Below are positions 1-13,290 of a stretch of 13,290 nucleotides of DNA, one piece after another. The position numbers and the translations under genes are program-made. The notes beneath the pieces were generated by a model, which worked only from the letters and a program-made list of their open reading frames with translations, ran no database searches and was not told where the DNA came from. The stretch is from a bacterium (GTDB lineage: Bacteria; T1Sed10-126), in assembly GCA_003557545.1 (NCBI GenBank), contig PWOD01000108.1:1-13290 (forward strand). The letters run 5' to 3'. The number at the start of each line of letters is the position of its first letter. The stretch's first letter is position 1.

Positions 1-2526
1 AATTCCGGGACAATTACTAACAGCTACAGCCGGGGAGCTATTGAAGCGCTTGAGGAGGCCGGTGGGTTAGTTGGCCGGCAGAGTGGTGGAATAGTTGAGC
101 AGAGCCTGGGGCTGGTTGAGTTAAAGGTTGATGTGGCAGCCGGGGGTGCAGTTGGCAGCCGGGTGGGTGGAGTTGTCGAGGAGGTCTTCTGGGACGTGGA
201 GCTGTCCGGTGAGTCGCAAAGTGCTGGAGGGGTGGGGTTAACTACCCGTCAGCTGCGTGATTTAGCCACCTACAGCGGTGCCGGCTGGTCGATTGAAGCC
301 AGCGCTATTGAGCACAACGATGGCTATCCATATCTGTCGGGGGAGACAGACCCGGTCTGGCAGATTTCGGTCTACCTGGAGTTAGAGATTATCGGTGAGG
401 GTGTGGTGCTGATTAATGGTGAGACCTATGTTGAGCCGCTGCAGGTTGATCCACAAACGCCGCTGCTGGTTGAGGCGGTCTCCGGTCCAGCCTGGGAGTT
501 TGGCGGCTGGTCGGGTGATTTGACCGGTGCGGATAGCAGCGTGGAGTTAATTGTTGAGCGGGATAAATCGATCACAGCTGAGTTTACCGGAATAACCCAT
601 CAGCTGGTAGCCGAGATTATCGGCAGCGGAGAGCTGCTGGTTGATGGGACGACTTATACCGATACGCTGGTGCTGCTTACCGGCAGCACGGTAGCGCTTA
701 AGGTGGTGGCGGATCAGTATTACAGCTTCAGTCAGTGGGGTGCTGATCTGGTTGGCAGTGATACGGAACTGGAGCTGCTGGTCGATGAGGATAAGTTGAT
801 CGTGGCTAAATTCAGCCGGGACAGCCATAGTCTGGAGATTGCTGTGGAGGGTCCGGGCCGGGTGGAGGTTAACGGTGAGACCTACGTCGGGCCGCTGCAG
901 CTGGCTGCGGGTGAGACGCTGGGGCTGGCCGCCGAGCTGTTGAACCCGGCCTATCGGTTTGATGGCTGGTCGGGCGATATTGATAATCCGGCAAAGACGC
1001 TCAGTCTGCTGATTGAGGAGGATCTGCAGTTGATCGCACCGTTTGTTCCAAACTTTGCCGGTGGCGAAGGAACACAGGCCTCTCCCTATGAGATTACAAG
1101 CTGGGAGCATCTGCACAGCGTCCGGGGTTTCCCTCAAGCCCATTTCAAGTTGACCGATGATCTGGACAGCACCAGCATTGGTTATCACCAGCTGGCCTCG
1201 GAGACCGCCAACGGTGGAGCCGGCTGGCAGCCAGTTGGTGACGAGACCGATCCCTTTGCCGGTCAGTTTGACGGAGCCGGCAGGACTATTGCCGGTCTGT
1301 ACATCAACCGTCCGGACAGCGATTATATCGGACTGTTCGGGGTGAGCTCGGCCGAATCACAGATGGCTGGCATTGAGCTGTATGAGGTTAATATCCTGGG
1401 GAGGAACAACGTCGGGGCATTAGTTGGGAAAAACGATGGGTATATTGAGATCAGCTCCAGCAGCGGTTCGGTTGAGGGTGAGGATAATGTGGGGGGACTG
1501 GTCGGGCAAAATCTCAGGGGACGTAAATTATCTGAGTCATCTTCGGCTGCTCAAGTAAAAGGAAATGACCGGGTAGGAGGATTGGTTGGGTATAACTATC
1601 GTAGTAGTGAAGTGGTTGGTTCTTTTGCGCAAGGGTCAGTTGAGGGTGAGAACATGGTAGGTGGTTTGATTGGATATAATTTCCGTGGAGGTATAGTGGA
1701 AAGATCCTTTGCCAGTGGTGATATACGGGGGAATGATTATGTGGGTGGGTTAATCGGTTTGACCGGTTCCGGTAGTGAAATCAGATATTCTTATTCGACC
1801 GGTGCGATTGAAGGGGGAGAATATGTTGGTGGATTAATCGGGACCAGTCGATTTGGCAGAATTAGTGGCTGTTATGCAAGAGGAACTGTTGATGGTGTGA
1901 AGAGTGTTGGCGGGTTTATTGGTCAGCTTGAAGAAGGAGCTGTTGAAACAGTTTATTCGACAGGTAAAGTTACTGCCATAGATAAAGCCGGTGGGCTTAT
2001 TGGTGAGAAGGTTTCAGCCCGTGTAATTCAAAGTTTCTGGGATATTGAAAGTTCATATCAGCGAAAGAGTGCTGGTGGCAGAGGCAAAACAAGTTTTGAA
2101 ATGAGTGATATTCACACTTATATTGATCAGCGCTGGGATATTCAGTTGATCGATAAGGAGGTAAATGATGGTTACCCATTTCTAGCCTGGACAGAACAGC
2201 TTAACTCGCCAGTGTGGTTTCTGACCGATGATGAATATTTTAATCTACTTGGAACAGCAGAGGGGTTAGAACAGCCATATTCCTATCCAAATCCTTTTCG
2301 GGCTGATCAAAATCGGGTGGTAAGTTTTATAATACCAGCAAAATATGGTAACCGGGTAAATCTAACAGTTTATAGTGTCGGGGGTCGCCTGTTGATAAAT
2401 AAGCAGTTAAATCTAGAGGTGGGCCGTATGGCAAGATGGGAGCCGGAGCTGGCCTCAGGGACTTATATTTATCTAATCGAGGGTAACGGCGTGTCAGATT
2501 CTAATAGGATTACGATTATAAGATAA
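1..2526 (+). CDS. GLUG-repeat / InlB-like surface protein, 5' end missing
   Basis: The frame is open from base 1, so the gene starts to the left of the window; 841 residues are visible. In order I see the end of a GLUG array (GGLVG near residues 21-25), a closing segment (FWD...NDGYP-type, residues about 62-110), and three InlB/'bacterial repeat' modules of about 74 residues with GWSGD-type cores (about 124-348). Then come a linker (GEGTQASPYEI...), a second array of eight GLUG repeats (about 462-678), a second closing segment (FWDIES...NDGYPFL), and a tail from about 760 that begins YPNPFR and ends ITIIR. GLUG and InlB-like modules are typical of exported adhesins. The tail resembles FlgD-like/type IX 'Por' sorting domains. 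No catalytic motif is visible. Visible GC falls from roughly 60-70% in the first half to 40-47% in the second. The function is inferred as cell-surface binding; its partner is unknown. Confidence 0.85.
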   Translation, partial: NSGTITNSYSRGAIEALEEAGGLVGRQSGGIVEQSLGLVELKVDVAAGGAVGSRVGGVVEEVFWDVELSGESQSAGGVGLTTRQLRDLATYSGAGWSIEASAIEHNDGYPYLSGETDPVWQISVYLELEIIGEGVVLINGETYVEPLQVDPQTPLLVEAVSGPAWEFGGWSGDLTGADSSVELIVERDKSITAEFTGITHQLVAEIIGSGELLVDGTTYTDTLVLLTGSTVALKVVADQYYSFSQWGADLVGSDTELELLVDEDKLIVAKFSRDSHSLEIAVEGPGRVEVNGETYVGPLQLAAGETLGLAAELLNPAYRFDGWSGDIDNPAKTLSLLIEEDLQLIAPFVPNFAGGEGTQASPYEITSWEHLHSVRGFPQAHFKLTDDLDSTSIGYHQLASETANGGAGWQPVGDETDPFAGQFDGAGRTIAGLYINRPDSDYIGLFGVSSAESQMAGIELYEVNILGRNNVGALVGKNDGYIEISSSSGSVEGEDNVGGLVGQNLRGRKLSESSSAAQVKGNDRVGGLVGYNYRSSEVVGSFAQGSVEGENMVGGLIGYNFRGGIVERSFASGDIRGNDYVGGLIGLTGSGSEIRYSYSTGAIEGGEYVGGLIGTSRFGRISGCYARGTVDGVKSVGGFIGQLEEGAVETVYSTGKVTAIDKAGGLIGEKVSARVIQSFWDIESSYQRKSAGGRGKTSFEMSDIHTYIDQRWDIQLIDKEVNDGYPFLAWTEQLNSPVWFLTDDEYFNLLGTAEGLEQPYSYPNPFRADQNRVVSFIIPAKYGNRVNLTVYSVGGRLLINKQLNLEVGRMARWEPELASGTYIYLIEGNGVSDSNRITIIR
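370..1044 (+). repeat. Three tandem InlB-like repeat modules
   Basis: Three consecutive protein modules of about 74 residues each share the same plan. Each has a beta start (LEIIGEG, AEIIGSG, AVEGPG), a G(E/T)TY turn, a W-centred core (GWSGDL, QWGADL, GWSGDI), and an aspartate/glutamate-rich end leading into an 'aEF' or 'aKF' strand. The same module occurs once in the neighbouring leucine-rich-repeat protein (GWTGDL). The copies are diverged, so this is an old protein-level duplication and not a recent DNA duplication. Confidence 0.8.
1384..2034 (+). repeat. GLUG repeat array, eight copies
   Basis: Eight repeats of about 25-27 residues, each with a VGGL(V/I)G-type core followed by a serine/tyrosine-rich strand and a G-x-V/I turn. 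The cores read VGALVG, VGGLVG (twice), VGGLIG (three times), VGGFIG and AGGLIG. GLUG arrays are expected to fold as a beta-solenoid-like rod in exported adhesins. The start of this array is also where base composition changes to a lower GC level. Confidence 0.8.
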
Positions 2527-2687
2527 GTTGATTGACTTATAAGAAGGTCAGATCATCCAGGGAAATATAGTACTTCAATGAGACAAGGAAAACCACAGAG
2601 TGGATGGGGAGCTGAACGAAAGAGAAAATCACTCACGAGGTAGTGGAGGGATCAACCTTTCAACATCGAGGCAAACTGGCGAACTAA

Positions 2688-5600
2688 TTATCTTATGATC
2701 GCCAGCCGTCCGGTTTCGCTGTTGCCGGTTGATCTGTCTTTGATCCGGTAGATGTAATAGCCACTGCTCAGGGTTTTGCCCGAATTATTACGGAGATTCC
2801 ATTCATAGGGGTCGTCGTGGGTTATTGTGTTGTAGACCAGAGTTCCGATAATCGTGTAAATTTCCAGCTCAAACGGACCATTATTGGGAGAGTTGAAGGC
2901 GAAATGCATCGAGTTATCGCCTGTCGTCGGATCGCCGTCACTGAAGCGGAAGGGATTGGGACCAACGATTACTTTAGAAGGTTTAGAGGGTTGGCCGATT
3001 GCGGTTTGAAAGAGGGCTGTGCACTGTCTATCCTGATTCATAACTATTGTTATTTCACTATCTGCCGATGTTAGGTCGCCGGTCCAGCCCTGGAAAACCA
3101 TTCCCGGGCCCGGGTTTGCTGTAAGCAGTAGTTCGGTGTTATAGATGTATTTGTCAAGGTCGGGATCAACGGAGACGCTGCCGTTGCCAATGATGTTTAT
3201 AGTTAATAGTTTATAACGATAGATCCACTGGCCGGCCGCCGCATTCCACAGGTAAGTGCCGGGATAGGAGTTGTTGGCCTGATAATCTGCCTTGAAATTA
3301 CCGTTATCACCGAGGGATGCAATATTTCCGATGCTGACCCCGGGACCAAGTTTTACTTCGGTCAAAGAATTTCTATAGAAAACCCAGTCTGTAACTGTGT
3401 TTAGGGTGGTGGGAAGTTCGATGGCTGTCAGGGAGTTAAAGGCGAAGGAATGGCTGCCCAGTTGAGAAATCGAGGGTGGCAGCTGTAATTCGAGCATATC
3501 GTTGTAAGCGTAGGCATAATGGCCTATTTCAGTGATAGATGGGCCGAGAGTGAGCTGTGTAATGTTGTTATCGTAAAAAGCGTAGTGGCCGATTCGGGTT
3601 ACAGTGACGGGAATTGTAGCGGTGGTTAGATTATTTCGGGTGAAGGTGAAATCTTTTATTTCAGTAATACCATGGGGAACTGTTACTGTGGTTAGCTCGT
3701 TGTTGCGAAAGGCCCCGACACCGATAGTGGTGGTGGAGTCGGGGATTGTGATGCTGGCAATATTGTTATGGGCAAAGGCATAATTCCCAATTGCAGTGAG
3801 AGAGTCGGGAAAGATTACACCGTTAAGATCCATGTTGGCAAATCCGATTGGATCGTTATCGTCACCGGGTCCGATAATCTCAACGGTTATCCCGGCTATT
3901 TTTTCAGGAATTACCGGGGAGAGTATTTCAGGAGAATCACCACTGATACCGGTAGGGTAGTACTGAGTTATAGTTCCGGTCAAGGGGTCAAATTCAAAAT
4001 ATTCTTCAGGGGTTAGATGGAGCCATTGGAAGCTGTTTTGATGCCATTGATAGCTGCCGGCCAGGGAGTTGTTAGCCACGTAATCTGCTGTAAAATTACC
4101 AATATTTCCCAGGGAAAAATTGTCTCCCAGTATAACATCCCTGCCAATAGTCACCTTTGTTATGGGATTGTCGCGGAAGGCAGAATCACGAATTTCAGTG
4201 ACAGATTCCGGGATGGTTATTTCGGTAAGTTGATTTCCCCAAAAGGCACTCATATCGATTAAAGTAAGAGAATCGGGGAGCTGTAGCTCTGAAATCAAAT
4301 TGTTACGGAATGCAGTGTGACCTATGGTTGTGACAGAATCACCCAGAGTCAGCGATTCGATAGAGTTGTTGGCAAAGACATAATCACCGATATCTGTAAT
4401 AGAATCAGGAATAGTGAGTTCTGTGAGGGAATTGTTATAAAAGATCATGTTATGTAAGACAGTGAGGGAATTGCCAAGGATTACAGATTCTATGGCATTT
4501 TGTTGAAAGGCTGCATTGCCCATTAAAGTAACAGAATCTGGAATAATTAACTCTGTAAGCAGGTTGTGTGAAAAACTGCCCCCTCCCAGATGCTCCAGGG
4601 AATTTCCCAGAGTCAGCGTTTCCAGATTGTTGTATCCGAATACATTTTCACCTATAAAGGTAACAGAATCTGGAATGATGATTTCTCTGAGTGAATTTTT
4701 ATAGAATGCCAGGCCTCCTATGAATGTAATAGATTCCGGGAAGGTTACGGCAGTTAAACCCATGTTGGAGAATCCAACGGGATTATTCCAATGCCCATAG
4801 CCGATTTGTTCAACTGTTTGACCGGCTATCTGGGACGGAATAATTGGATCGAGAACTTCAGGTGATTGACCTTCGCCGCATAAATAGTTTTCAATTCGTC
4901 GCAGTGAGATATTAAAGTCAAAACAGATATCGGCCAGAAGTGACCAGCTTAAAGCATGCCACAGGTAGGTCCCGGCCTGCGAGTTGTTTGCTTCATAGGC
5001 AGCTTTGAAATTACCATAAGGACCGAGTGAACGGTCGTTGCCAATAATAACATTCGACCCGATGGTTACCTCGGTTATCAATTCATGACGAAAGGCATCT
5101 GATTCCAGCTCAACAAGTGAATCAGGCAGCCGCAGCCTGGTTACCGGATTGTCCTGAAACGCCCGCGCGCCGATTTTAGTGATTGATTGAGGAAAATTCA
5201 AGTTTTCCAGGTTGTTGTTACCAAAGGTATGGGACTTTATTTCAGTGATTGAATTTCCAATATAAAGCTCTTCCAGCTGGTTGTTGACAAAGGCCCAGGA
5301 ACCCAGGTCGTTGACTGAATCGGGGATCAGGACGGCTGTAAGTAGATTGTCCATAAATGCATAATTTCCTATTTTTATCAGGGAATTTCCCAGCGTAAGA
5401 GTTTTTAGATTATTCAGACGAAACGCATTAGATCCTATTTCAACTACTGAATCGGGGATGATAAGTTCGCTGAGTGAATTGTGGATAAATGCGTGCTGTT
5501 TTATTTCGAGAAGAGAGGCGGGCAAAGTTACAGCGGTTAAACCCAGGTTAGAAAAACCTTCAGGATTGTTCCAATCACCCTCTCCTATAATCTGCACGGT

Positions 5601-5828
5601 TTCTCCTCCTATTTTCGCAGGAATTACCGGGCTGAGTATTTCTGGAGAGTCCCCGGTTAATCCGGTGGGGTAATACTGGGTAATAGTGCCGGTGGCCGGG
5701 TCAAATTCGAAATAGTTTTCGGGAGTTGTTTCTCCTCGAACAGTAACGGGGTTTAAGAGTAAGAGGCTAACGCTAAGGATGAATATAAAAATGATCCAGG
5801 AGGATTGAATATTATAGCTGTTAATCAT
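2688..5828 (-). CDS. BspA-like leucine-rich-repeat surface protein
   Basis: A complete 1046-residue protein. A hydrophobic stretch at residues 11-27 acts as signal peptide or anchor; its n-region lacks lysine or arginine, which is unusual. The body is three large modules (about 36-297, 301-600, 607-870). Each opens with a header (clear in modules 1 and 3 as FEFDP-TGTITQYYPTG, diverged in module 2), continues with BspA-type repeats of about 23 residues (LTELxIPDSVTxIGxxAFxxN), and closes with GNFxAxYxANNSxxGTYxW. Then follow one InlB-like module (GWTGDL, about 871-942) and a tail of about 90 residues from GPNPFR to LAIIR. BspA-like proteins are surface adhesins in other bacteria; no enzyme motif is visible. 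The ATG is preceded by AGAAGGA with a 7-base gap. It converges with the GLUG protein and shares two domain types with it. Confidence 0.85.
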   Translation of the reverse strand: MINSYNIQSSWIIFIFILSVSLLLLNPVTVRGETTPENYFEFDPATGTITQYYPTGLTGDSPEILSPVIPAKIGGETVQIIGEGDWNNPEGFSNLGLTAVTLPASLLEIKQHAFIHNSLSELIIPDSVVEIGSNAFRLNNLKTLTLGNSLIKIGNYAFMDNLLTAVLIPDSVNDLGSWAFVNNQLEELYIGNSITEIKSHTFGNNNLENLNFPQSITKIGARAFQDNPVTRLRLPDSLVELESDAFRHELITEVTIGSNVIIGNDRSLGPYGNFKAAYEANNSQAGTYLWHALSWSLLADICFDFNISLRRIENYLCGEGQSPEVLDPIIPSQIAGQTVEQIGYGHWNNPVGFSNMGLTAVTFPESITFIGGLAFYKNSLREIIIPDSVTFIGENVFGYNNLETLTLGNSLEHLGGGSFSHNLLTELIIPDSVTLMGNAAFQQNAIESVILGNSLTVLHNMIFYNNSLTELTIPDSITDIGDYVFANNSIESLTLGDSVTTIGHTAFRNNLISELQLPDSLTLIDMSAFWGNQLTEITIPESVTEIRDSAFRDNPITKVTIGRDVILGDNFSLGNIGNFTADYVANNSLAGSYQWHQNSFQWLHLTPEEYFEFDPLTGTITQYYPTGISGDSPEILSPVIPEKIAGITVEIIGPGDDNDPIGFANMDLNGVIFPDSLTAIGNYAFAHNNIASITIPDSTTTIGVGAFRNNELTTVTVPHGITEIKDFTFTRNNLTTATIPVTVTRIGHYAFYDNNITQLTLGPSITEIGHYAYAYNDMLELQLPPSISQLGSHSFAFNSLTAIELPTTLNTVTDWVFYRNSLTEVKLGPGVSIGNIASLGDNGNFKADYQANNSYPGTYLWNAAAGQWIYRYKLLTINIIGNGSVSVDPDLDKYIYNTELLLTANPGPGMVFQGWTGDLTSADSEITIVMNQDRQCTALFQTAIGQPSKPSKVIVGPNPFRFSDGDPTTGDNSMHFAFNSPNNGPFELEIYTIIGTLVYNTITHDDPYEWNLRNNSGKTLSSGYYIYRIKDRSTGNSETGRLAIIR

Positions 5829-9928: not shown

Positions 9929-11260
9929 TCAGCTTATTCGACTCCATAATTCAGAAGCAAGCTCTCTGGATCTTTGACTGATCGAAGGTTCATCCAGAGT
10001 CTGGAGTTGTTTGTTTTTCATGAGAATTTTACCGGCGACGATTGTACTGTCGACAGTTGCGTTGACTAATCCGTAAATAAGATGTCCAAGAAAGGTGTTG
10101 GTAGTCAGTTCGGTTGGCGGACAGTAATCAAGGATGGCGATATCTGCCGCGGCACCTTTCTCAAGAGAACCCAGTTTAACAGGGAATAGCCGGTTAGCTA
10201 TTTGTGCGTTATTTTCAATTAAAAGTTGTGGTGCTTCTACAAAGGCTACCCGGGGATCTGATTTGTCGTGTTGATGTAACAGGTGAGCGCAGCGCATCTG
10301 TGCTGGCATATCAGAGGACATGCCATCAGTTCCAAGTCCAACCAGAATACCCCGGTCCAACATTTCCAGAACAGGGGAAACACCAACAGCGTTGTTCATA
10401 TTTGATTCAGGGTTATGAACAACTACAGTATCAGTTTGTGAGATCAGGTCGATTTCATTATTATCAACATTTACACAGTGGATATAGAGAGTTTTATCAC
10501 CACAGATCCCGAGATCTACAAGCCGTTCAACTGTGCGTTTGTTATAGTTGGCCAGTGAGTCCTCGTGGTCTTCAACACCTTCGGCAACATGTATGTGATA
10601 GCCAACATCATGTTGTTCGGCAACTTCTCGACATTTCGCCAGAGTTTCATCAGAGACTGTCAGTGAGGCGTGGATTCCTACCATACCCTGAAAAAATTCA
10701 GGATCACGTGAACTTAGTTCTTCCAGCCAGCGTTGATTTTCAGCCACCCCGGCTGCTGGAATATTTCGATCAGATACTTCATAACTTAGATTTGCTCGAA
10801 TTCCGGCCTCTTCTACGGCATCCGCAATAAGAGATAGGCTGCCGTCACGGCAGGAGGGGCTGGCATGATGGTCAATAATAGTTGTTGTACCGCTTTTTAT
10901 CGATTCGATCAGGGGAATATAGGCGCTGTAAAGAACTGATTCTTCAGTGAGAGCTTTATCCAGCTTCCACCAGAGTCTTTGAAGAATTTCTTCAAAGGTA
11001 TAGGCCGGCTCACCCGGTGGCGAAAACCCACGAGCCATGGTGCTGTAAAGGTGATGGTGAGCACAGATAAATCCTGGCATGACCACCTGATTAGTTGCGT
11101 CAATAGTTTCAACGTCAGAATAATTTTCCAGCAGTTCTTTTGTTGTTCCGATATCTGCAACAGTGCCTTTAGAAATATATACAGCACCATCATTGATGAT
11201 TTGGTTATCATCACCCAGAGTTACTACAGTACCGTTAATAATCAGATATTCGTCCATCAT
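9929..11260 (-). CDS. ssnA: SsnA-type amidohydrolase
   Basis: A 443-residue cytoplasmic metal-dependent hydrolase of the cytosine deaminase/chlorohydrolase-like amidohydrolase family. A beta-sandwich start and end (IINGTVVT..., VAGKILMKN) flank a TIM barrel. Metal-ligand motifs are present: HHH at 68-70, HIHVAE at 222-227, His261 in YIHCVN and Asp312 in LGTDGMSSDM. The segments RLWWKLDKAL, SGTTTIIDHHASP and HNPESNMNN match SsnA closely. SsnA genes recur beside YgfK/dihydropyrimidine-dehydrogenase-like reductases and hydantoinases in anaerobic purine or urate breakdown clusters, some of them selenium-linked; its exact substrate is not settled. Two ATGs are adjacent. AGGAGG lies 4 bases before the first and 7 before the second (11257), so the second may be the true start. 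It is 22 bases downstream of the oxidoreductase gene and is probably co-transcribed with it. Confidence 0.88.
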   Translation of the reverse strand: MMDEYLIINGTVVTLGDDNQIINDGAVYISKGTVADIGTTKELLENYSDVETIDATNQVVMPGFICAHHHLYSTMARGFSPPGEPAYTFEEILQRLWWKLDKALTEESVLYSAYIPLIESIKSGTTTIIDHHASPSCRDGSLSLIADAVEEAGIRANLSYEVSDRNIPAAGVAENQRWLEELSSRDPEFFQGMVGIHASLTVSDETLAKCREVAEQHDVGYHIHVAEGVEDHEDSLANYNKRTVERLVDLGICGDKTLYIHCVNVDNNEIDLISQTDTVVVHNPESNMNNAVGVSPVLEMLDRGILVGLGTDGMSSDMPAQMRCAHLLHQHDKSDPRVAFVEAPQLLIENNAQIANRLFPVKLGSLEKGAAADIAILDYCPPTELTTNTFLGHLIYGLVNATVDSTIVAGKILMKNKQLQTLDEPSISQRSRELASELWSRIS

Positions 11261-11264
11261 TATT

Positions 11265-11270
11265 CCTCCT
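11265..11270 (-). promoter_or_regulatory. Ribosome binding site of ssnA
   Basis: A perfect AGGAGG on the minus strand lies within the 22-base gap after the oxidoreductase stop codon. It is 4 bases from the first ATG and 7 bases from the second, which favours translation beginning with Met-Asp-Glu-Tyr. Confidence 0.75.
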
Positions 11271-11282
11271 GCTTAGTTAGGA

Positions 11283-13290
11283 TTATTCTTCACAAAGTAG
11301 TTCGGCTTCACGCTCAGTTCGTTCACGCATATCAATTGCTCCGTAGGGGCAGAGTTTTTGACACATACCGCAGCCAATACAGAGTTCTGGATCGGTTTCG
11401 GGATAGTTCTCATCGTCCATTTCAATTGCCAGATAAGGGCAACGGGTACAGTTACCACATTGAAGACAGAGGTCACGATCTTGATCGGAAATAGCTTTTT
11501 CAGGATCAAGATCCATAAAGTCACGGATCGGCTTCGGTAAGGCAATACCGATCAACTGGTCCATAGATTCGATCTTCCGGTCAGCCATGAGATGGCTCAC
11601 ACCAGAGGTCAGGTCATCGATTATTGAATAGCCCATTGCGGTTGGCATTGTACAAAACTGGGCAGTCTGACAGCCAAGGGCGAGAAAATCAGCCGCGGCC
11701 TTATAATCCATAGGACCACCGTTACCGGAGATTGCAACGTTAAGCGGCGCGGCTTTAGCCAGGGAAAGATAGCTGATATTTAAAGCACCCTGTCCACTCA
11801 TCCCGGCAACAATCCCATATTCCCAATCTTTAGTGAGCTGTTCACTGTCCGCTCTGAAGGTAAGGGTTGGGAAGGTGTTAGCAAGAGTAATTCCAGCCAG
11901 ATGATCCGGGTATTTTGCAAAAACTTTTTTCAATTCCTGGACAATTGTTTCGATCGCTGTTACCGCCCCGGTAAGTTTGAAAAGCTTGGGAACTTCGGGG
12001 TTGCTGTCCTGTAAAATCCATTCAACGATTTTAGCTGATAGTTGGGCACTCTGTGCGACTATGTCACCTTCTGTTCCTTCGCCCCCCTGTGGGCAGGAAA
12101 GGCTGTACTCGATCAATTGCGCACCAGCTTCCTCGAGCTGACGAGTGTTATTCTGCCAGCCCTGTTGATCAGTTTCATCATTTCCTGTGACCGGTCCGCC
12201 AGTAGAAGCAGCAACCAGCTTGTTGGGAAATTCCGGTCTTAGCTGTTCGATTTCACGACAGACCCGATCAAGTAGATGGCCTGAAACATTGTCGCAGTTA
12301 GCATAGGTTTTATCATCATACTGGAACATATAGTGGCCAGGTATATGAATCGGACCGCTGGCGAAAGCAGTTTTCATGATTCCGCCGGCCCATCCGGCTT
12401 CAAAGGCCTGTTTCATCTGTTCGTAGCCATCGGTTGGAGGAGCTGCCGAGAGAAGAAAGGGATGTTCAAGTTCAATATTAAAAAACTTTGTCTTTAATGG
12501 TACCGGCCAGTAGTTGTAACCGGGAATAACTATGTTACTCTTAACCGTCCCGTTGGGAGCTCGATCGAACTCTGGAATTGGCCTGTCAGCCAGATGGGCC
12601 GAGACTTTTTCAGCAGTATTTTTTCCGGCTGCGGAACCCTCAACTACAGTGGTCGGTCCTTCAATGCAGTCACCGGCATAAAATAATCCTTCAAGTTGAT
12701 CGATGGGGAGCTCGCTGGAAGCACCAATAGCAACTATCACGGTGTCGATATCGGAGCGCTCCATAAGACTGTTTTCCAGTGGATGAATCGCATCAAGCGA
12801 GAACTGTTCGCCATCCAGCTTGATTTTTTGTATCTCAATCCCCCTTATTTTGTCAGTGGAATCAGTTAGAATCTGAGTAACCTGAATCCGTCCTGTAACA
12901 TCAATACCGCTACTGGTCAGCTCATTCATCTCATCTTTAGTGAGCGGCATTTCATTAAGTTTTTCCAGGGCAAAAATTTCTACTGATTCAACTCCAAGGG
13001 ATTGAGCAGTGGCTGCACAATCATATGCAGTTGCACCCCCGCCAATAACTGCCAGGTTATTACCGAGATTAAAAGTGTCAGGATTTTTTAGAAAGTTTAT
13101 GCCAGCGATTGCCTGACTATCATTTTCGATTCCAGGATAGCGTGGTTTCCAGAGACCGTTAGCAACTATGACAGCGGCGTATTCCTGTTCTAATAGTTCG
13201 GCTGGATCTTCAATTTCAAAATCAGTCTCAACAGTGATATTATCAAGTTCTAAAACCCACTCTACATCGGTTTTTAGAACTTCGGGATCC
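11283..13290 (-). CDS. DPYD-like flavin/iron-sulfur oxidoreductase, N terminus missing
   Basis: The frame stays open to the right edge, so about 668 C-terminal residues are visible. They run GltD/PreT-like NAD(P)H-FAD domain (GGGATAYDC at 83-91; AGDCIEGPTTVVEG at 205-218), then a PreA/dihydroorotate-dehydrogenase-like FMN barrel (about 263-590; SLSCPQGG at 396-403, ISGNGGP near 520), then two [4Fe-4S] motifs (cysteines 608/611/614/617 and 637/640/643/647). This is the order of single-chain mammalian dihydropyrimidine dehydrogenase, a PreT-PreA fusion. It differs from E. coli YgfK as I recall it, where the barrel comes first. Where mammalian DPD has its catalytic cysteine (LACGQ) this protein reads DIVAQ, so the substrate is probably not uracil. 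The first cluster has an unusual CxxCxxCxxCP spacing. It probably feeds NAD(P)H electrons to reduction of a purine-derived or similar ring, with SsnA acting next. The substrate is inferred only. Confidence 0.85.
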   Translation of the reverse strand, partial: DPEVLKTDVEWVLELDNITVETDFEIEDPAELLEQEYAAVIVANGLWKPRYPGIENDSQAIAGINFLKNPDTFNLGNNLAVIGGGATAYDCAATAQSLGVESVEIFALEKLNEMPLTKDEMNELTSSGIDVTGRIQVTQILTDSTDKIRGIEIQKIKLDGEQFSLDAIHPLENSLMERSDIDTVIVAIGASSELPIDQLEGLFYAGDCIEGPTTVVEGSAAGKNTAEKVSAHLADRPIPEFDRAPNGTVKSNIVIPGYNYWPVPLKTKFFNIELEHPFLLSAAPPTDGYEQMKQAFEAGWAGGIMKTAFASGPIHIPGHYMFQYDDKTYANCDNVSGHLLDRVCREIEQLRPEFPNKLVAASTGGPVTGNDETDQQGWQNNTRQLEEAGAQLIEYSLSCPQGGEGTEGDIVAQSAQLSAKIVEWILQDSNPEVPKLFKLTGAVTAIETIVQELKKVFAKYPDHLAGITLANTFPTLTFRADSEQLTKDWEYGIVAGMSGQGALNISYLSLAKAAPLNVAISGNGGPMDYKAAADFLALGCQTAQFCTMPTAMGYSIIDDLTSGVSHLMADRKIESMDQLIGIALPKPIRDFMDLDPEKAISDQDRDLCLQCGNCTRCPYLAIEMDDENYPETDPELCIGCGMCQKLCPYGAIDMRERTEREAELLCEE

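Follow-up and report, generated by a model that had tools for sequence, protein, structure and literature searches.

Two convergent genes at the start of the window, by which we mean the whole 13,290-nucleotide stretch of DNA analyzed here, encode unlike surface proteins whose C-terminal tails belong to two homologous classes spread through the same genome. These tails are likely the cargo signals (C-terminal domains, CTDs) of a variant type IX secretion system (T9SS) in a small, uncultured phylum of LPS-type diderms outside the FCB group, with dedicated PorV/PorQ partners serving one of the classes, class 2. This reading is weakened mainly by the break in the sprA gene, by the failure to detect a motor or a sortase, and by the sampling behind the marker tree.

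Two Classes of Sorting-Type Tail

The first gene (positions 1 to 2526, forward strand), identified from its open reading frame and Pfam matches, encodes a GLUG-repeat surface protein, of which 841 residues are visible, the 5' end being truncated by the contig start. The protein is composed of Flg_new_2 repeats, GLUG repeats and a class 1 tail (Pfam: Glug, 2e-21; Flg_new_2, 2e-13); this C-terminal sorting-type domain of 82 residues (2278 to 2523, forward strand; YSYPNPFR...LASGTYIY...TIIR) runs up to the stop codon at 2524 to 2526. The facing gene (2688 to 5828, reverse strand) encodes a BspA-type leucine-rich-repeat (LRR) surface protein of 1046 residues, identified from its open reading frame and LRR_5 matches (2.5e-129), with a hydrophobic N-terminal segment (Kyte-Doolittle value 3.18), LRR_5 arrays, a single Flg_new_2 domain and a class 2 tail. 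Its first residues, approximately 1 to 32 (5733 to 5828, reverse strand; MINSYNIQSSWIIFIFILSVSLLLLNPVTVRG), form a probable Sec signal peptide with an inferred cleavage site, and its tail comprises 92 residues (2691 to 2966, reverse strand; VGPNPFR...WNLRNNSGKTLSSGYYIY...GRLAIIR) ahead of the stop codon at 2688 to 2690. No terminator or promoter pattern was found between the two genes. At the other end of the window (9929 to 13289), a gene for an SsnA-type aminohydrolase adjoins one for a PreA-like/YgfK-like oxidoreductase with ferredoxin domains, a pairing seen in the selenium or purine metabolism of anaerobes.

The original prediction held that the two surface proteins end in tails of one shared plan. 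The coordinates and the shared positions stand, with 31% identity and 25 invariant positions in the alignment, including PNPFR, L..Y...G.L, LxSGxYIY and IIR, but the tails represent two classes rather than one. Its comparison with type IX sorting models was borne out. The GLUG tail exceeds the TIGR04183 cut-off of 23 bits (24.1 bits for the whole protein, 30.2 for the tail alone), and the LRR tail scores 18.5 bits within the whole protein and 23.0 alone. The LRR tail also matches PF13585 (CHU_C; 26.9 bits, 5.4e-6), just under the gathering cut-off of 27, as well as the C terminus of PorZ (4e-6). No match to TIGR04131, the model of type B CTDs, was listed. The FlgD Ig-like domain PF13860 (cut-off 27) was listed for neither window tail, its best whole-protein score being 24.3 bits.

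A TIGR04183 profile search of the host genome returned 39 places at E ≤ 10, of which approximately 21 lie above the cut-off, one of these being a likely contaminant, and an alignment of 30 host tails gave 44 matches at E ≤ 0.01, so that the further carriers, for which the original prediction proposed a search, amount to about 40 other C termini. In the stretches that we read, the tail lies within 12 residues of the stop codon wherever the protein end is assembled. The carriers range from 145 to 4310 residues, with bodies unrelated to one another, and a hydrophobic N-terminal segment is present in 15 of 17 complete tail proteins vs. 46 of 127 other open reading frames. Class 1 and class 2 HMMs found no match among 2260 shuffled host open reading frames and none among 1263 open reading frames taken from around glyA in 80 further named genomes, which argues that the tail matches are not due to chance.

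The tails read comprise 13 of class 1, with the signature LASGTYIY...TIIR, and 25 distinct tails of class 2, with the signature WDxRNNSGxxVSSGYYLY...GRLAIIR, and the window contains one of each. Class 1 tails score 107–133 bits with their own HMM and at most 30 with that of class 2, and class 2 tails score 72–145 bits with their own HMM and at most 41 with that of class 1; the window tails reach 126 bits (GLUG, class 1) and 144 bits (LRR, class 2). Since hhalign finds the two profiles homologous (P = 98.6%) while the HMM scores remain separated, the window tails are homologous yet distinct as signals. Host contig C31 encodes another LRR protein, whose tail is 95% identical to that of the window LRR protein.

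TIGR04183 and Por_Secre_tail match 13/13 class 1 tails at E ≤ 0.1, and TIGR04183 and CHU_C match 25/25 class 2 tails at the same threshold, the CHU_C matches being weak; FlgD_ig weakly matches 19 of the 25 class 2 tails. Against the PDB, the class 2 profile matches the CTDs of PorZ (5m11, 5.5e-6) and PorU, and the NucA CTD bound to SprA-PorV (8glk). Judged by sequence, class 1 tails are plain type A, and class 2 tails come closest to CHU_C and to the CTDs of PorU/PorZ. Structure prediction covered only the two window tails (pLDDT 66 and 76), hence a modest confidence in the models, both of which are Ig-like. PorZ/PorU ranked high in the Foldseek list for the LRR tail, and the CTDs of mirolase, NucA and RgpB for the GLUG tail. 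Ig and FnIII domains crowd the structure matches, and structural Z-scores do not separate T9SS CTDs from other Ig-like folds. Ig-like folds are common, and structural matches alone are therefore not decisive.

A third, divergent type of tail (VEWNGRNNSGKIVNNGLYIVHV...VMVVK) occurs on host contig C198 (34 to 4667), where the carrier gene overlaps a divergent PorV-family barrel gene by 4 bp; a similar tail is present in locus L202 of the second genome described below.

Predicted Outer-Membrane Partners and Export Machinery

We compared the host genome (G000) with G001, the only other genome of the phylum in the collection, which belongs to the same family but to another genus. Six host genes match the PorV/PorQ family model NF033709 at 134–166 bits (cut-off 90), and ten genes of G001 lie above the cut-off; a host PorV-family barrel also matches PorV in the PDB (6h3i, 3e-8). 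All six strong host genes lie directly behind a gene with a class 2 tail, five of them overlapping its stop (gaps of -4, -4, -10, -10, -11, and +23 bp), an arrangement expected by chance with a probability on the order of 1e-10, given approximately 44 tails and a gene number of approximately 2000 as estimated from genome size. In G001, a tail gene precedes 10 of 11 strong PorV genes, two of these tails being class 1, so that 16 of 17 strong PorV genes in the two genera pooled stand directly behind a tail gene. Within G000, no PorV gene lies behind any of the 13 class 1 genes, and most class 2 genes, including that of the window LRR protein, are likewise without one. In the PorV tree, the class 2 partners from G000 and G001 share a single clade (0.94), and the two class 1 partners group together elsewhere, such that PorV clades broadly follow tail class. 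Similarity of the host barrels to PorP/SprF is well below the cut-off (15 bits vs. 90.55). Two very similar class 1 tails, L139 (G000, contig C123) and L197 (G001, contig C79), are probably orthologous; a PorV-family gene lies behind the tail gene at L197 and none at L139.

Among the other genomes searched, above-cut-off PorV genes are present in five of nine Gemmatimonadota, in none of 28 further named genomes from other groups, and in none of 14 controls. In six loci of two Gemmatimonadota genomes, a CTD gene lies immediately upstream of the PorV/Q gene, and Gemmatimonadota PorV form a separate clade of the tree (0.871).

A SprA-like gene on host contig C23 encodes 1004 residues before running off the contig end. 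It matches TIGR04189 at 74.5 bits (E = 2.9e-21; family cut-off 200 bits), with a best-matching stretch of 189 residues. A second, weaker SprA-like piece starts at the end of host contig C86 (699 residues, 24.7 bits); the C23 and C86 ends share no overlap, and we infer that the two pieces belong to one sprA gene, of which C23 carries the N-terminal half. In G001, an N-terminal SprA fragment at a contig end is 52% identical to its host counterpart. A phmmer search of the PDB with the host pieces gave no match. TIGR04189 found no SprA in the two Gemmatimonadota tested, and may therefore miss divergent forms. Three open reading frames (L133, L134, and L135) in an Armatimonadota genome (Chthonomonadia), which is without PorV/Q genes, match the SprA model around positions 587–691, the region also best matched by the host SprA.

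GldM (TIGR03517) had no match in the host genome at E ≤ 10, and the catalytic part of PorU (C25 sortase) was not found with NF033707, whose matches reach no further than the tail and a short adjoining stretch (positions 955–1095). The machinery that the original prediction proposed to look for is thus present in part: the PorV/Q-family barrels are clear and a SprA-like gene exists, below cut-off and broken, but neither GldM nor a full PorU was detected. At one locus of G001 (L201, contig C102, 2181 to 11549), a tail gene is followed by two PorV-family genes and then by TolQ/ExbB, TolR/ExbD, TonB-like and TPR genes. The TPR protein has a partial PorW/SprE-like stretch (64.8 bits), TPR matches being generic, and one may guess that these genes provide an alternative motor for the secretion system.

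The failure to find GldM and PorU, the crowding of structure matches by Ig and FnIII domains, and the weak FlgD_ig matches of class 2 tails would also suit conserved Ig-like/FlgD-like structural domains that serve large adhesins in folding or cell-wall contact, with export by another route and no T9SS. We regard this explanation as improbable, given that the tails are found nowhere but at the very C-terminal end of proteins unrelated to one another, that strong PorV genes in two genera nearly always follow a tail gene, and that a SprA-like gene is present. The models of TIGR04183, CHU_C and the PorU/PorZ CTDs also fit the tails better than FlgD_ig; the tails are not the ordinary Ig-like domains that would have refuted the original prediction.

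Host Identity and Envelope

The host phylum consists of two genomes in the collection; the host is therefore not a member of the Bacteroidota, a placement that would have refuted the original prediction, and it is probably not a member of the FCB group. Its probable position outside the FCB group rests on RpoB and on the tree. The host RpoB does not have an insert of approximately 119 residues that is found in every examined sequence from Gemmatimonadota, Acidobacteriota, Desulfobacterota, Campylobacterota, Bdellovibrio, and Verrucomicrobiota, and that is absent from the examined Clostridia and Thermotogota sequences. In a six-marker FastTree phylogeny, in which Gemmatimonadota is the only FCB phylum and Bacteroidota are left out, the host and G001 split from the insert-bearing group (the Gemmatimonadota/Acidobacteriota/Proteobacteria side) with a support of 1.000 and lie next to Thermotogota (0.945). 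KDO-synthesis genes on host contig C73, beside a PorV pair, support an LPS outer membrane.

Gemmatimonadota share the pairing of CTD and PorV genes, and among the genomes searched they alone outside the host phylum have above-cut-off PorV/Q genes, as might be expected if the host were a misplaced or deep FCB lineage with an ordinary FCB-type T9SS where such a system belongs. The missing RpoB insert and the fully supported split from Gemmatimonadota and the other insert-bearing groups, in a tree without Bacteroidota and the other FCB phyla, make this unlikely, though it is the more serious of the alternatives to a variant T9SS outside the FCB group.

The host genome is a fragmented assembly, and one short contig, C17, combines the best TIGR04183 match, a Bacteroidota-style type A tail, with outlying tetranucleotide composition; we rejected it as host DNA on account of that composition, and it is probably an assembly contaminant. 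That the T9SS-like genes reside on contaminating Bacteroidota or Gemmatimonadota contigs in the bin, as C17 might suggest, is very improbable: all other tail, PorV, and SprA contigs are host-like in composition (C23, r = 0.83, within the range of 3-kb host pieces), contig C73 joins a PorV pair to KDO genes, and the same system recurs in a second genus of the family.

A Probable Variant Type IX System and Its Relatives

The variant T9SS that we favor would comprise the following steps of secretion, recognition and anchoring. Cargo would reach the periplasm by means of a Sec signal peptide; recognized by its C-terminal Ig-like tail, it would then be carried across the outer membrane by a divergent SprA translocon. 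Class 2 proteins, such as the window LRR protein, would be passed to barrels of the PorV/PorQ family, and for six of these the gene comes immediately after a class 2 gene; the barrels would act as cognate shuttles and probably as surface anchors, in the way that SprF serves CTDs of type B in Flavobacterium. For class 1 proteins, such as the window GLUG protein, the partner would be a different one of PorV type, which follows class 1 genes in G001 and was not found in G000. Because no PorU catalytic domain was detected, the tails are probably retained as anchors rather than cleaved, and because no GldM was detected, the energy probably comes from a different motor. A bolder and more tentative version is a T9SS outside the FCB group without GldM motor or PorU sortase. 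Each class 2 adhesin would there be brought out and kept in place for good by a PorV/Q-type barrel of its own, and export would be driven by a Tol/Exb-type motor, as hinted at by the TolQ-TolR-TonB-TPR genes that follow a tail-PorV locus in G001; we consider this version possible but doubtful.

Similarly to type A T9SS of Bacteroidota (TIGR04183/PF18962), the host has a C-terminal Ig-like domain of approximately 80 residues on many unrelated proteins, mostly with signal peptides, together with PorV-family outer-membrane barrels, a SprA-like gene and class 1 tails that match TIGR04183. Unlike type A, in which a single PorV is shared, the host has many PorV/Q paralogues tied to single cargo genes, has neither a detected PorU catalytic domain nor GldM, and lies outside Bacteroidota. 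In Flavobacterium type B, the gene for a cognate SprF-like shuttle comes right after that of its cargo, and some cargo genes stand without such a partner (PMC12618676); the SprF/PorP system of F. johnsoniae has been linked to anchoring (PMC9143113). Like type B (TIGR04131/CHU_C with SprF/PorP), the host has a second class of CTD, frequently borne by adhesin-like proteins, a barrel gene immediately after the cargo gene, and some orphan cargo; its barrels, however, are of the PorV/PorQ family, with only weak PorP/SprF similarity, and the CTDs of PorU/PorZ are those that its class 2 tails most resemble. Gemmatimonadota likewise place a PorV/Q gene immediately behind a CTD gene, although their PorV clade is separate and their CTD similarity is weaker (12–32 bits). 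With the FlgD Ig-like domain, the tails share an Ig-like fold and a WDGRNNSG-type motif, but they sit on secreted surface proteins and not on hook-cap proteins, and neither their position nor their pairing with PorV is flagellar.

Published work restricts T9SS to the FCB group (PMC11285876), and our literature search, which covered papers available without subscription, found no report of it elsewhere; a type IX-like system in a host probably outside that group is unexpected, as the original prediction held for a diderm Firmicutes-like host. Since CTD-PorV pairs are also present in Gemmatimonadota, the pairing would be either older than the host lineage or transferred to it. How shuttles recognize CTDs is an open question in Flavobacterium (PMC12618676), for which the pairs of tail class and PorV clade offer a natural data set. 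Collectively, approximately 40 tails and matching outer-membrane partners in a phylum probably outside the usual group indicate that T9SS-type export probably has a wider distribution and more variants than had been assumed and, if SprA-like, PorV-family, and CTD parts do form a system in a phylum on the far side of the tree, T9SS would be older or more mobile than has been supposed.
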